NCBI GenBank assembly: GCA_947463325.1
Contig: CANHQT010000004.1
Location: forward strand, 48,810-112,809
Reading direction: 5' to 3'
Origin: Sphingomonadaceae bacterium
GTDB lineage: Bacteria; Pseudomonadota; Alphaproteobacteria; Sphingomonadales; Sphingomonadaceae
Length of the DNA: 64,000 nt
Shown: positions 23,121 through 31,846 of the stretch, in pieces
Layout of the letters: each line of letters opens with the position of its first letter
How positions within the stretch are numbered: the first letter of the stretch is position 1
The notes under the pieces: generated by a model
Told to the model about the DNA's origin: nothing
Database searches by the model: none
The model's input: only the letters and a program-made list of their open reading frames with translations
Position numbers and translations under genes: made by a program

Positions 23121-23762
23121 TTGCAACAGGATGTTGACGGTTCGGCAACCGCGACCGTGGTGGGAAGGGCCATGCGCCACCACCCGCCCGCCCCCCGCCA
23201 CAGCCCGACGGGCCTGCCCCCAACCGGCCCGCGGAACCCGCAAAGGCAAGGAAAAGGCCGATTCTTCGCGGCCGCCACCGCCATATTGATCAGCGGCGCG
23301 GCGCTGGCCGGATGGCCGATGGCCGAGGCGGCAGCGGAAAAAGACGGCCGCGAGGCGCCCAGGATCGCTTCCATTATGGGGGCATCCGAAGCGGGCGGAT
23401 CCGATGTGATCCGCGGGATGCGGTTCAGCCTGTGCGAGGGCAGCGGCGGAACCAATTGCGTGGTCGACGGGGACACTTTCCGGCTGGCCGGCGAGCGGAT
23501 CCGCATCGCCGACATCGACACGCCGGAAACCCACCGGCCACAATGCCCGGCGGAAGCCGCGCTGGGCGAGGCCGCGACACGGCGGCTGCACGCGCTGCTC
23601 AACGCCGGCACCTTCACGCTGCAAAGCATCGACCGCGATACCGACCGTTTCGGCCGCAAGCTGCGCATCGTGACGCGCGGCGGCGAGAGCATCGGCGGGC
23701 AGCTGGTGCGCGAAGGGCTGGCGCGGCCCTATCGTGGCGGGCCGCGCGCCGGCTGGTGCTGA
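23121..23762 (+). CDS. Thermonuclease (SNase-like) family protein
   Basis: VVDGDTFRLAGERIRIADIDTPET...DRDTDRFGRKLRIV...GGQLVREGLARPYRGG; start uncertain. Confidence 0.85.
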   Translation: MQQDVDGSATATVVGRAMRHHPPAPRHSPTGLPPTGPRNPQRQGKGRFFAAATAILISGAALAGWPMAEAAAEKDGREAPRIASIMGASEAGGSDVIRGMRFSLCEGSGGTNCVVDGDTFRLAGERIRIADIDTPETHRPQCPAEAALGEAATRRLHALLNAGTFTLQSIDRDTDRFGRKLRIVTRGGESIGGQLVREGLARPYRGGPRAGWC

Positions 23763-23798: not shown

Positions 23799-24140
23799 CT
23801 AATCATACAGCGAGGTCGCGCAGGAGAGGCACAGCGCCGCTTCATGCTGCACCCCGAGCCGGCGAGGGTCGATCCCCTGCCCGCAGCGGGCGCAGACCCC
23901 GTAGGTGCCGGCATCGAGGCGGCTGATGGCAGCCCTGACTGCGGCAATCTCCAGCATGATCAGTGCTTCCTCCCCTTCCAGCACCTCATCATCTTCCTTT
24001 TCGGTGGCAGCCTCGCTGCTGTCCGGATTGACCGGTTCGATGCGCGCGGCGTGGACATGGGCGGCGCGCACCTGCAGCTCGGCAAGGCGGCTAGCGAGCT
24101 GCTCGCGGATGGTTTCAGGATCGAGGACCATGAACATCAC
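23799..24140 (-). CDS. TraR/DksA-type zinc-finger protein
   Basis: CARCGQGIDPRRLGVQHEAALCLSCA. Confidence 0.85.
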   Translation of the reverse strand: MMFMVLDPETIREQLASRLAELQVRAAHVHAARIEPVNPDSSEAATEKEDDEVLEGEEALIMLEIAAVRAAISRLDAGTYGVCARCGQGIDPRRLGVQHEAALCLSCATSLYD

Positions 24141-24388
24141 ACCTCCTGCCGGGCGGCGGCAAGCAGCGCCGCGACCTGATCCAACAGGGTGAGCCGTTCA
24201 CGCTTCAGCGATTCGAGCGCCTCATCCCCCAGCGGCTCGACCTCTGCTGCGCTGCGGTGAATGGTCCGGTTCACCTCATGATAGCGATCAGCCAGCTTGA
24301 TGAAGTGCGGATCCTCCAGCTTCAGCCGGTGGAGGAGCGCGGTGTCCGCGGGGAATTCCGCGGCGAGCTCATGCGGTGTGTGGGTCAT
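24137..24388 (-). CDS. DUF465/YdcH-like small protein
   Basis: FIKLADRYHEVNRTIHRSAAEVEPLGDEALESLKRERLTLLDQVAALL; 4-nt overlap with the DksA-like gene. Confidence 0.8.
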   Translation of the reverse strand: MTHTPHELAAEFPADTALLHRLKLEDPHFIKLADRYHEVNRTIHRSAAEVEPLGDEALESLKRERLTLLDQVAALLAAARQEV

Positions 24389-25324
24389 AGTCTCTCCCTT
24401 CAGGCGACGACGATGCGACACTTATGGACACCGGCCCCGATGCGCGCATTGCGTTGAATCAAAAGCACTCGATGGGAGTTGGTTCCGCTCGGGAGAGAAA
24501 GAAGAGGGTTAACGCTGGGGCGCGGGGGGAAAGGGAGAAGGGTTCGCGCAGAGGCTGTTGGATTTGGGGATGCGCCGATCCTGTCGCGGGACTTCGGTTT
24601 GAAAAGCGAAGCGCGGTCGGCAGGAATCGGTGGCGCCCTGCCCGTTGGCGGCGCAATGCCGTTCGACCGGGGAGCCGGAGGGTCAGCCAGGGTGGCCCGA
24701 TCAGCGGCGGAGGCGGGCTGACACGCCCCCGCGCAAGCCGGAAGCGGGGCCGTGCGTGCCGGCGGCTGGCGAGGGGCAGGCCGGATAGGCCCGCCGCGTT
24801 GCGCCAGTCGCGCTTACCATTCACGCATGCGCCCTGCCGGCAGTGGCCGCTCTCAACGAACCAGCCCCGACGGTCAGCCATGACATAAGCGTTGTTGCCG
24901 GTCCTCGGCCCCGCGCCGTCCGCCGCGGGCCCTTCGCGAAGGGTGGCCGCGTGTCCGGTGCAAGGCCCTGGGTTCTTCCACCGACCCCATGCCATGGTGA
25001 CAGACGCCAGCGATGCACGCCCCCCAGGGAGGCCGGGCACCGCCCAATCCCCGCGATTTGGCGCACGAGAGGGAGTCCTCTGGCCAGAAAGCCACCCCAT
25101 CCACGCCGACCGCTATGCCGGCCCATCGGGGGTTGCCCAACTCACCAGCCCGCCAACCCGCCCGAAGTGCGATTCCGGACGGACGAGTGGGATTTACCTA
25201 ACCTATTTGGTTGTAGAAGTCAATCGCATAAGGCACGCCGATGCGACCCATCAGGAGCGAAGCACTGAGCAGTTAAGGCTGGCGAGACTTGTAAGTTACG
25301 CGGTAAAAAATAGATTGCGCGTCA

Positions 25325-25834
25325 CTATATGGACACTTGAGAGTTCCAATCCCGGATGAGCGAACCTAAACGTGCCATATCGCGATCTGATAATACGCCG
25401 CTGTGCATTATAACATTTCTAGAACGTTCAACGATCTCGAAGACACTTTTAACCCACTCGATATTGGGTAGATACGCCTCAAACTTGTCTAGATTGTTGG
25501 CGATTATATTTGCTAAATTTGGAAGCATAGTGAACTTGATTGGACTACCCCCTCGCTGGACATGCCAACGCACTTGCTGCTCTGCCTCCATTCGCTTCCG
25601 CGCATCCGATCTAATCCGCTCCGACACGCACTTGTCCCACCAATCCTCGCCCTCGGCCTCAAGCAGGACGCGTGTCACAAGCTCGGTATCTAGCACATCG
25701 ACGCCAAGAGTTTTGCGTAGAGCCTCCGCGTCAAAGCTTAAGTCATGGCGCTTTTTGCGCCCAGCACGGTCCAGTGCGGCGTCAGTCAGTTGCCCCTTGA
25801 AGACAAAGCTGTATGCTTCATCATACAAGCTCAT
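25325..25834 (-). CDS. Swt1-type HEPN domain protein (candidate RNase/toxin)
   Basis: EIVERSRNVIMHSGVLSDRDMARLGSLIRDW contains the HEPN RX4H motif (R139-H144); start overlaps upstream stop as ATGA. Confidence 0.7.
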   Translation of the reverse strand: MSLYDEAYSFVFKGQLTDAALDRAGRKKRHDLSFDAEALRKTLGVDVLDTELVTRVLLEAEGEDWWDKCVSERIRSDARKRMEAEQQVRWHVQRGGSPIKFTMLPNLANIIANNLDKFEAYLPNIEWVKSVFEIVERSRNVIMHSGVLSDRDMARLGSLIRDWNSQVSI

Positions 25835-26478
25835 CCTAAGTGCTCGCGCAGGCTCCGGAATAGCGCATCGTAAACAGCGGGATCACGAGATTCCGGGAGA
25901 ATAATTTGAATATTATAGTGAAGACCGTTCACGGATAGACGAGGCAGCCTCTTTTTTCTTAATGGAATTTTATCGCTTTCTGCATCATCAAAAATATCTT
26001 CGTTGTCATCCTCTATATCAGAATCTATGTCATCTTCAGGAGCGCGCCTGACCTGCTCGAAGTCAGCCAGTTTGCACAAACTTGAGAACGTCATCGCCAT
26101 TTTGCCAATGACTGTTTCACCGTATTGGCCCTGGGTCAGGGTCTTCAATTTATTTGTTAAATCTACTCTACTTAACTTATGGGCATTGATATTTACATCG
26201 AACAGATCTTTATAGGCATATCGGATGCCTTCCGCCATAACTACTCGAGCTTGACCAGCATCTAAGTATGCAAAGTACCTAGACGTTGGCTTGCCTTGAT
26301 CATCGAGAAATCCAAGCGCCTTGAGAACTCCGATTATGAGGCGGTCAGGGGACGCTTTAAAATCTAGAGACTGAAGAAATCGAACAGTAAACCGCTCAGG
26401 CGCTTTAGCTTGTTGTATAGCCTCCAAAATCGCCGTCAAGTTCTTGGTGCTGGTCAAATATGCAGATGGGAGAGCCAT
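25831..26478 (-). CDS. DUF5343-like protein
   Basis: LTSTKNLTAILEAIQQAKAPERFTVRFLQSLDFKASPDRLIIGVLKALGFLDDQGKPTSRYFAYLD pattern; low-GC gene coupled to the HEPN gene. Confidence 0.65.
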   Translation of the reverse strand: MALPSAYLTSTKNLTAILEAIQQAKAPERFTVRFLQSLDFKASPDRLIIGVLKALGFLDDQGKPTSRYFAYLDAGQARVVMAEGIRYAYKDLFDVNINAHKLSRVDLTNKLKTLTQGQYGETVIGKMAMTFSSLCKLADFEQVRRAPEDDIDSDIEDDNEDIFDDAESDKIPLRKKRLPRLSVNGLHYNIQIILPESRDPAVYDALFRSLREHLG

Positions 26479-26481
26479 ACT

Positions 26482-26580
26482 TTAATCCGCCGCAATCGCC
26501 GGAGCGCTGAACATGTCTTCGTCGCCATGATCGACGGCTACGGTTTCGCCTGCCTTAGCGCACTGGCGCTTATCGAAGTT
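26482..26580 (-). pseudogene. Diverged duplicate of the nrdB 3' end
   Basis: 99-nt ungapped match (83/99 by hand count) to 26929-27027; FDKRQCAKAGETVAVDHGDEDMFSAPAIAAD* vs FDKRQRAKVGETVADNDGEEDMFSAAGIAAE*. Confidence 0.9.
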
Positions 26581-26781
26581 GACTCGGAAGATCGCCCTGG
26601 CACCACGGATTACGCCGCCCAATGGCGTGGCGAATTCAAACGGTTGATTGGACGAGGGCGCCATCAAGAAAACTCGGACAGTTGATGCTCAGAGGGCGAA
26701 TAGTGAATGAATGCAGTTTTGAGTCAAGTCGAGTTAACTATTTAGATAGCAGGATGTGTTGAGACAGGATTCAGTATAATA

Positions 26782-26796
26782 CATTGAAATTCAATG
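26782..26796. promoter_or_regulatory. Palindrome CATTGAA-A-TTCAATG (operator-like) next to TATACT/TATAAT -10-like hexamers
   Basis: Perfect 7-bp inverted repeat; on the minus strand it lies between TTAATC (26801-26796) and TATACT (26778-26773). Confidence 0.45.
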
Positions 26797-26928
26797 ATTA
26801 AGCGGAGATCGAGCGCCCACCACCCCGCGCAAACAAGTGCGGCGCGGGATTACCTCCCGCGCCGTCACTATGCGCTGTGCGCTGATGGGGAAGTGGGGGC
26901 GCGGTTGTGGGCGCGCCCTCGCTCCGGC

Positions 26929-27981
26929 TTACTCCGCCGCAATCCCTGCTGCGCTGAACATGTCTTCCTCGCCATCATTGTCGGCGACGGTTTCGCCCAC
27001 CTTGGCGCGCTGGCGCTTGTCGAAGCTGGACCAGACATCATTCCAATCCCCGCGGGTCGCGGCCTTTGAATATTCGGTCGCGCGGGTTTCGAAGAAGTTG
27101 GCGTGTTCCACACCGTTGAGCAGCGGGGCGAGCCAAGGCAGCGGGTGTTCATCGATCATGTAGATCGGCTGGAAGCCCAGCTGACCAAGGCGCCAGTCGG
27201 CGATGTAGCGGATGTAGCGCTTAATTTCCTTTGGCGTCATGCCGGGGACCGGGCCCTGTTCAAAGGCGAGGTCGATGAAGGCATCTTCCAGACGCACCGT
27301 TTTCTGGCAGCAATCCAGAATATCGTCGCGCACCGCGGGGGTCAGGCAATCGCGTTCCTTGACGAAGGCATGGAACAGGCGGGTGATCCCCTCACAATGC
27401 AGGCTTTCATCGCGGATCGACCAGCTGACGATCTGACCCATGCCCTTCATCTTGTTGAAGCGCGGGAAGTTCATCAGCATCGCGAAGGAGGCGAACAGCT
27501 GAAGCCCTTCGGTAAAGCCACCGAACATGGCGAGCGTGCGGGCGATATCCTCATCATTATCGACACCGAAGGTGTTCAGATAATCATGCTTGTCCTTCAT
27601 TTCCTTGTACTGAAGGAACATGCCATATTCGCTCTCGGGCATGCCGATGGTGTCGAGCAGGTGGCTGTAGGCCGCGATATGCACCGTCTCCATATTGGAG
27701 AAGGCGGTCAGCATCATCTTGACCTCAGTCGGCTTGAACACGCGGCCATAATGTTCGTGGTAGCAATTCTGCACCTCGACATCGGCCTGCGTGAAGAAGC
27801 GGAAAATCTGGGTCAACAGGTTACGCTCATGATCGGACAGCTTTTGCGCCCAATCGCGGCAATCCTCACCCAGCGGCACTTCTTCCGGCAGCCAGTGGAT
27901 CTGTTGCTGGCGCTTCCAGAAATCATAGGCCCAGGGATATTGGAACGGCTTATACTGGGCGCGGGCTTCGGTGAGGGACAT
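26929..27981 (-). CDS. nrdB: Ribonucleoside-diphosphate reductase small subunit
   Basis: YPWAYDFWKRQQQIHWLPEEVPLGEDCRDW, FSNMETVHIAAYSHLLDTIG, IRDESLHCEG. Confidence 0.97.
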   Translation of the reverse strand: MSLTEARAQYKPFQYPWAYDFWKRQQQIHWLPEEVPLGEDCRDWAQKLSDHERNLLTQIFRFFTQADVEVQNCYHEHYGRVFKPTEVKMMLTAFSNMETVHIAAYSHLLDTIGMPESEYGMFLQYKEMKDKHDYLNTFGVDNDEDIARTLAMFGGFTEGLQLFASFAMLMNFPRFNKMKGMGQIVSWSIRDESLHCEGITRLFHAFVKERDCLTPAVRDDILDCCQKTVRLEDAFIDLAFEQGPVPGMTPKEIKRYIRYIADWRLGQLGFQPIYMIDEHPLPWLAPLLNGVEHANFFETRATEYSKAATRGDWNDVWSSFDKRQRAKVGETVADNDGEEDMFSAAGIAAE

Positions 27982-31484: not shown

Positions 31485-31577
31485 ATACTCGCCCTCTCCC
31501 GGCTGTTGTTGGCGGGGAGGATAGGGGGGAAAGGCTGCGGTTTGCAAGCGGGGGGTGCCCGGGATCAGCGCGGCGCG

Positions 31578-31614
31578 GACGGGCGAGACTGCCGCGCCTG
31601 CGGCTTGGCATTTC
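31578..31614. repeat. 37-bp direct repeat, copy 1
   Basis: GACGGGCGAGACTGCCGCGCCTGCGGCTTGGCATTTC, identical to 31695-31731. Confidence 0.95.
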
Positions 31615-31694
31615 GCTGTCACCTTCGTCCCCCGGACGGATGTCAGGGTACCCTTCGCTGCGCTACGGGATTTCGATATCGCATTCGCCCCCCC

Positions 31695-31731
31695 GACGGG
31701 CGAGACTGCCGCGCCTGCGGCTTGGCATTTC
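31695..31731. repeat. 37-bp direct repeat, copy 2
   Basis: Identical to 31578-31614. Confidence 0.95.
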
Positions 31732-31772
31732 ATTTTTCAGATCGTCCCCCGGACGATCAGAAAAATGAAATG
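31726..31772. repeat. 22-bp inverted repeat directly after tRNA-Ala
   Basis: CATTTCATTTTTCAGATCGTCC-CCC-GGACGATCAGAAAAATGAAATG, one mismatch. Confidence 0.9.
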
Positions 31773-31846
31773 GTGGAGCCTAGCGGGATCGAACCGCTGA
31801 CCTCCTGCATGCCATGCAGGCGCTCTCCCAGCTGAGCTAAGGCCCC
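31771..31846 (-). tRNA. tRNA-Ala (GGC)
   Basis: GGGGCCTTAGCTCAGCTGGGAGAGCGCCTGCATGGCATGCAGGAGGTCAGCGGTTCGATCCCGCTAGGCTCCACCA; loop ATGGCAT. Confidence 0.95.

Follow-up and report, generated by a model that had tools for sequence, protein, structure and literature searches.

The window, by which we mean the whole stretch of 64,000 nucleotides analysed here, carries on its minus strand an intact nrdB gene for the small subunit of class I ribonucleotide reductase (26929..27981; open reading frame with Pfam PF00268, 9.7e-76), whose product ends in ...AAGIAAE*. The 3' tail of this gene (26929..27027, minus strand) is the intact member of a repeat, and its diverged copy lies on the same strand at 26482..26580. 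The repeat search returned the pair as an ungapped direct repeat (26482-26581 versus 26929-27028) of 84% identity, the longest within 22-32 kb. In the codon-by-codon comparison 83 of 99 nucleotides were identical, the copy was in frame and its TAA was kept; the translated pair reads SFDKRQRAKVGETVADNDGEEDMFSAAGIAAE versus NFDKRQCAKAGETVAVDHGDEDMFSAPAIAAD. An earlier note on this DNA had described 26482-26580 as a relative of the last 99 nt of nrdB, and the position given there proved to be exact. The Smith-Waterman score of the tail pair was 120, compared with 21.6 +/- 2.5 for codon-shuffled tails (z ~40). Upstream of the 99 nt of the copy no homology to nrdB above that of shuffles was found, and the similarity stops abruptly. 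The copy is the only one in its own genome and the sole instance among 64 Sphingopyxis loci.

Between the nrdB stop codon and the copy lies a spacer (26581..26928, minus strand) without homology to nrdB, GC-rich in its first part and AT-rich in its second. It contains a terminator-like stem (26840..26864, minus strand) 64-88 nt 3' of the nrdB stop which, judged by its match to the consensus, may be the terminator of nrdB itself and would then uncouple nrdB from the cassette. A consensus scan of the spacer revealed no strong sigma-70 promoter. Starting from an ATG at 26664, an open reading frame of 60 aa (26482..26664, minus strand) joins 28 unrelated residues (MAPSSNQPFEFATPLGGVIRGARAIFRV) to the NrdB tail copy. 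This frame had no Pfam match, and in 301 genomes of the family its 28-residue N-terminal part and the spacer gave only short matches at chance level and no convincing relative. The 60-aa frame is probably a leader or a scar.

The first cargo gene (25831..26478, minus strand) encodes a DUF5343 protein (PF17278, 2.3e-41; PADLOC PDC-M34A, 2.1e-74) and starts 3 nt past the stop codon of the copy (TAA AGT ATG), as had been noted before. It is overlapped by 4 nt by the second cargo gene (25325..25834, minus strand), which encodes a HEPN_Swt1 protein (PF18731, 4e-06; PADLOC PDC-M34B, 1.6e-54) with the HEPN-type RxxxxH motif in the form RNVIMH. Both genes of PDC-M34, a two-gene system of DUF5343 and HEPN proteins listed as a candidate in PADLOC, are present, adjacent and in one order. 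Compared with PDC-M34, itself a PADLOC candidate, what is new here is the genomic setting only. A literature search found no papers describing PDC-M34 or a hotspot at nrdB. Among the open reading frames and Pfam matches of the cassette there was no recombinase. For PDC-M34A there was no match in phages, plasmids and genome_contigs, and no donor was found in the family, where the best relative, from a congener, is 42% identical and is not located at the nrdB site. Elsewhere in the window, a 70-nt repeat in two copies of 83% identity (31569-31638 and 31686-31755, 117 nt apart) lies beside a tRNA-Ala(ggc) gene (31771-31846).

Variable cargo behind nrdB is common in Sphingopyxis. With one genome sampled per species, low-GC cargo was found 3' of nrdB in 48 of 64 loci and differed between species. 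As a low GC content and open frames were the criteria for cargo, genes of normal GC content were missed, and some of the listed frames may be due to chance. In 250-nt bins 500-1500 nt past nrdB the GC content was below 0.50 in 43-45% of the 64 congeneric loci, and in the bins beyond 3 kb, which served as internal control, this share was ~0. Pairwise blastn comparisons showed a left flank common to 57 loci, unshared cargo and right-flank blocks common to 24-51 loci. Moreover, the sites of G013, G021 and G034 are empty, with the left flank joined straight to a right-flank block. At the empty site of G013 (L074) the gene order is nrdB, Hyp94, DksA, thermonuclease. The genes for a 94-aa protein and a DksA-like protein in the window (23799..24421, minus strand) are syntenic with those 3' of nrdB in this genome, and the thermonuclease-like gene next to them (23121..23762, plus strand) is found 4-8 kb 3' of nrdB in many congeners. 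Since the right flank of the window is thus that of G013, the window cassette belongs to the Sphingopyxis hotspot.

In most Sphingopyxis species a conserved gene for a 74-aa protein without Pfam match (SQPQRATLEGLSNRRPQLP...WALTP.GKKVL; L160-L203; genus loci, e.g. L107, L111 and L120, ~350 nt past nrdB) lies 3' of nrdB and before the variable cargo. At the stop codon of this gene similarity between species ends, and past this boundary each has low-GC genes of its own. The 74-aa gene is absent in the window genome as well as in G016, G074 and G042. In G016 a cargo gene on the opposite strand abuts nrdB directly, and its protein is related to cargo that in G041 lies behind the 74-aa gene. Some species carry a nucleotidyltransferase-like gene (M(A/T)SPYRPEFEAALRLFARV) between nrdB and the 74-aa gene or tail copy. 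Insertions at this place were seen in L093, L114, L117 and L143 (0-550 nt past nrdB) and in L104, L125, L126 and L309; those of other species are presumably small DUF4160/DUF2442-like genes. An apparent second copy of the 74-aa gene in G066 (L146) turned out not to be a duplication, as a transposase gene, which we take to be of the IS110 type, splits the gene ~195-1345 nt past nrdB.

The same position is occupied in other genera of the family, where 56 of 98 genomes had low-GC cargo 3' of nrdB. The first cargo gene was co-directional with nrdB in 49 of these 56 (p=7e-9), and in 20 genomes of these genera cargo started only 1-14 nt past the nrdB stop. Together the cargo of both surveys, the two proteins of the window included, comprised 139 proteins in 95 clusters, 73 of which consisted of one protein only. 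The Pfam and PADLOC matches, tallied as the 25 commonest families, revealed many defence families, and many other cargo genes had no assigned function. Among the cargo were BglII, NaeI and NgoMIV restriction enzymes, MT-A70 and C5 methylases, GmrSD, DRT4 and bSEFIR, as well as TIR, SEFIR, DarT and Abi proteins, Vsr, OLD/Gabija-like ATPases and a dCTP deaminase. MT-A70/BglII and NaeI cassettes recur at the nrdB site across genera, with MT-A70 and NaeI proteins 67-89% identical. No integrase, resolvase or transposase was among the cargo families listed by Pfam for the 139 proteins, an ordering in which single matches better than ~1e-9 to 1e-11 would show. The DNA 3' of nrdB is therefore firmly established as a cargo site throughout the family, which bears out the earlier suggestion that the 3' end of nrdB may serve repeatedly as a landing site.

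Two further observations concern individual loci of the survey. A family of proteins of 230-270 aa recurs at the site in two genera (L066:8189-8911, L118:7484-8233, L137:5468-6268 and L248:2741-3451); its first member, which was tested, had no Pfam or PADLOC match. Its layout resembles that of DUF5343, and it may be regarded as a candidate for an unknown defence gene. The short contig L334 (G478:C30:1-2361) ends in an nrdB 3' fragment of 77% identity (residues 240-350). G478 also has a complete nrdB, and the fragment is foreign DNA or contamination.

Cassettes are often built straight onto the stop codon of nrdB. The last codons of the gene are usually GCGGAG-stop and thus contain a Shine-Dalgarno-like GGAG with suitable spacing for a gene landing behind it, which would serve the landed cargo as a ready ribosome-binding site. 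GGAG was not commoner at coupled sites, being present in ~75% of both groups (p=1). As it is found no less often at unoccupied sites, GGAG is a constant feature of nrdB and does not set coupled sites apart; it may permit landing without marking it.

Regarding the question of which tail is original, the sites that differ between the tails were compared with the nearest relative (G016), which supports nrdB's own tail at 10 of them and the copy at 3; at those where another relative (G071) concurs with G016 the ratio is 7 to 2, and all of these are small counts. Besides, the near-invariant AGIAAE end, read as AAE in 164 of 166 sampled NrdB sequences, is altered to PAIAAD only in the copy. Given the agreement of the outgroups with nrdB's own tail and the change of near-invariant residues in the copy alone, the copy is the decaying member of the pair; the polarised changes support the view that it is now unconstrained. 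The dN/dS of 0.38 between copy and own tail was uninformative, as functional tails also evolve fast. The closest sampled tail to the copy was that of its own nrdB (83/99), above any sampled species. Its source is therefore the lineage of the window or an unsampled sister. This comparison does not bear out the proposal of the earlier note that the nrdB of another organism was involved.

Similar copies of the nrdB tail were found 3' of nrdB in eight genomes of genus g70. Six of them share a homologous spacer, which points to one event with cargo changes afterwards. The spacers of G345 and G482 are unrelated to the shared one, which gives three arrangements in g70 and four with the window. We judge the three g70 arrangements to be independent on the basis of the non-homology of their spacers. 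In G345 the cargo overlaps the stop codon of the copy (GTGA), with a GmrSD/NsnA-like gene in second position; it overlaps the stop in G404 as well, starts 3 nt past it in G270 (bSEFIR, 6.7e-94) and ~15 nt past it in G482. The earlier idea that the cassette arrived with a 3' tail hence finds support in these cases and the window as a class, with cargo at or no more than ~15 nt from the stop of the copy. A decayed copy precedes DRT4 (3.8e-151) in G216, and further decayed copies are present in G503, G490 and G492; those of G216, G503 and G490 are truncated or disrupted by indels. In G345 and G482 the resident nrdB provides the closest match to the copy, and several g70 genomes have a copy that is closer to the tails of other species than to the own tail. 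The spacer of one g70 group contains a conserved AT-rich stretch (TTTGACTTCACATTTTTTGACAATATGTTGAA) ~50 nt before the tail copy (L314, L318, L319 and L331), which resembles a promoter for the cassette. A tail-like match of 37 nt in G155 (L222), 1.4 kb past nrdB, lies inside other sequence and was treated as chance.

Most likely, the tail copy is a scar of defence-type genes swapped in behind nrdB, with a mechanism that we infer from the anatomy of the junctions. The place behind nrdB would serve the family as an exchange site for cassettes of one to three genes, apparently rich in defence genes, which would carry no recombinase and be swapped when the conserved flanks recombine. Conserved flanks, empty sites, the lack of integrases and the presence of the same cassettes at the site across genera argue for this type of exchange. 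We consider it probable that nrdB tail and cassette were transferred together, in a recombination event with homology at one end and an illegitimate junction at the other. Recombination with homology at one end only has been documented (PMC3240628). In the window, a unit consisting of the end of an nrdB and PDC-M34 would have been joined behind the complete resident nrdB and its terminator, and the illegitimate junction would lie 99 nt short of the stop codon. The mirror image, in which a cargo-less nrdB end was joined ahead of the resident tail and cassette, would give an identical structure.

The comparison of the tail copies with their cargo shows tail and cassette to be a unit, and the role of arm length is what we infer from there. 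Cassettes assembled directly behind the nrdB stop would travel with a short piece of nrdB. If both arms are long, the flanks would be exchanged seamlessly, which fits the observation that most occupied sites are without scars. If the nrdB arm is short (~100-150 nt), an illegitimate join behind or in front of another nrdB end would leave a second tail, and longer duplicates would be lost through recombination. Gene transfer agents of alphaproteobacteria or transformation are plausible vehicles.

An unlikely alternative is that the tail was duplicated locally, by replication slippage or unequal sister exchange, and that the cassette settled behind the copy later. It would explain why in the window, G345 and G482 no sampled tail is closer to the copy than that of the resident nrdB, and in one g70 group an old copy with a shared spacer was indeed followed by different cargos, so that this copy predates the later cargo swaps; the window may be a similar case. 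However, the sequence past the first tail (terminator and spacer) is unlike that past the second (cargo), which argues against a simple tandem duplication. In the readable cases cargo starts within ~15 nt of the stop of the copy, several g70 copies are closer to the tails of other species, and no genome with a copy and clearly no cargo was found, a combination that the earlier note had named as evidence against its own reading.

Still less likely, in our assessment, is a site-specific element with a tyrosine or serine recombinase that targets the nrdB 3' end and displaces the native tail, of which the window would hold a shrunken remnant. The 3' ends of genes are classic att sites, the site recurs, and one complete and one displaced 3' end are the expected footprint; such a pair is also left by integrative elements which rebuild the host gene's 3' end, for instance e14 in icd. 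The nrdB site differs from these elements in that it lacks a recombinase and a consistent core and has cargo attached to the displaced tail. The listed cargo families include no integrase, resolvase or transposase, only 158-347 nt separate the nrdB stop from the copy in all cases but one, and most occupied sites show no duplication at all. Moreover, the inner ends of the copies vary between the four arrangements (99, ~119, ~128 and ~155 nt), contrary to what a fixed att core would lead one to expect, and the element proposed in the earlier note finds no support here.

We hardly believe that the 60-aa frame is a working leader whose product mimics the NrdB C-terminus, the known R1-binding element of R2 in class I enzymes, and competes for NrdA to throttle dNTP synthesis during phage attack, or tunes ribonucleotide reductase or couples expression of the cassette to it: although the copies of the window, G345 and G482 are open frames with an in-frame ATG upstream and an NrdB-type C-terminus ahead of cargo, near-invariant residues are altered in the window, g70 copies carry indels or truncations, the mini-ORFs have unrelated N-terminal parts and a frame of this kind is missing from most of the site's cassettes. 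If true, it would tie defence at the nrdB site to nucleotide supply.

An exchange of cassettes in flanking core genes, as we favour it for the nrdB site, agrees with what has been described for other hotspots. For hotspots without integrases or other mobile elements, double homologous recombination at flanking core genes is an accepted model (Oliveira et al. 2017, PMC5635113), and these loci likewise show quick turnover, conserved flanks and no mobility genes. At the nrdB site, in comparison, the left boundary can be placed precisely at a stop codon, that of nrdB or, in Sphingopyxis, of the 74-aa gene, and scars are one-sided. Similarly, the core defence hotspots cDHS1 and cDHS2 of P. aeruginosa collect many defence systems at one locus between conserved core genes, and exchange through homologous recombination in the flanks has been proposed there, without scars of mobile elements (PMC10250203). 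However, cDHS1 has a median size of 26 kb in one species, whereas cargo at the nrdB site measures ~0.5-2.5 kb and is found family-wide. In addition, cDHS1 and cDHS2 adjoin tRNA or tmRNA genes, whereas no RNA gene was found at the nrdB site of the window, and unlike in P. aeruginosa, there are tail scars and much of the cargo is coupled to the nrdB stop.

For the family, the nrdB site is a good place to seek new anti-phage systems, as about half or more of the sampled relatives carry different small gene sets there. Given the many recognised defence genes and the large share of single-protein clusters, comparing this site across genomes is a cheap route to their discovery. The tail copies provide evidence at the level of junctions on how genes turn over in hotspots without mobile elements, which is an open question. 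Finally, the idea that incoming genes find a ready ribosome-binding site in the near-invariant nrdB end can be tested.
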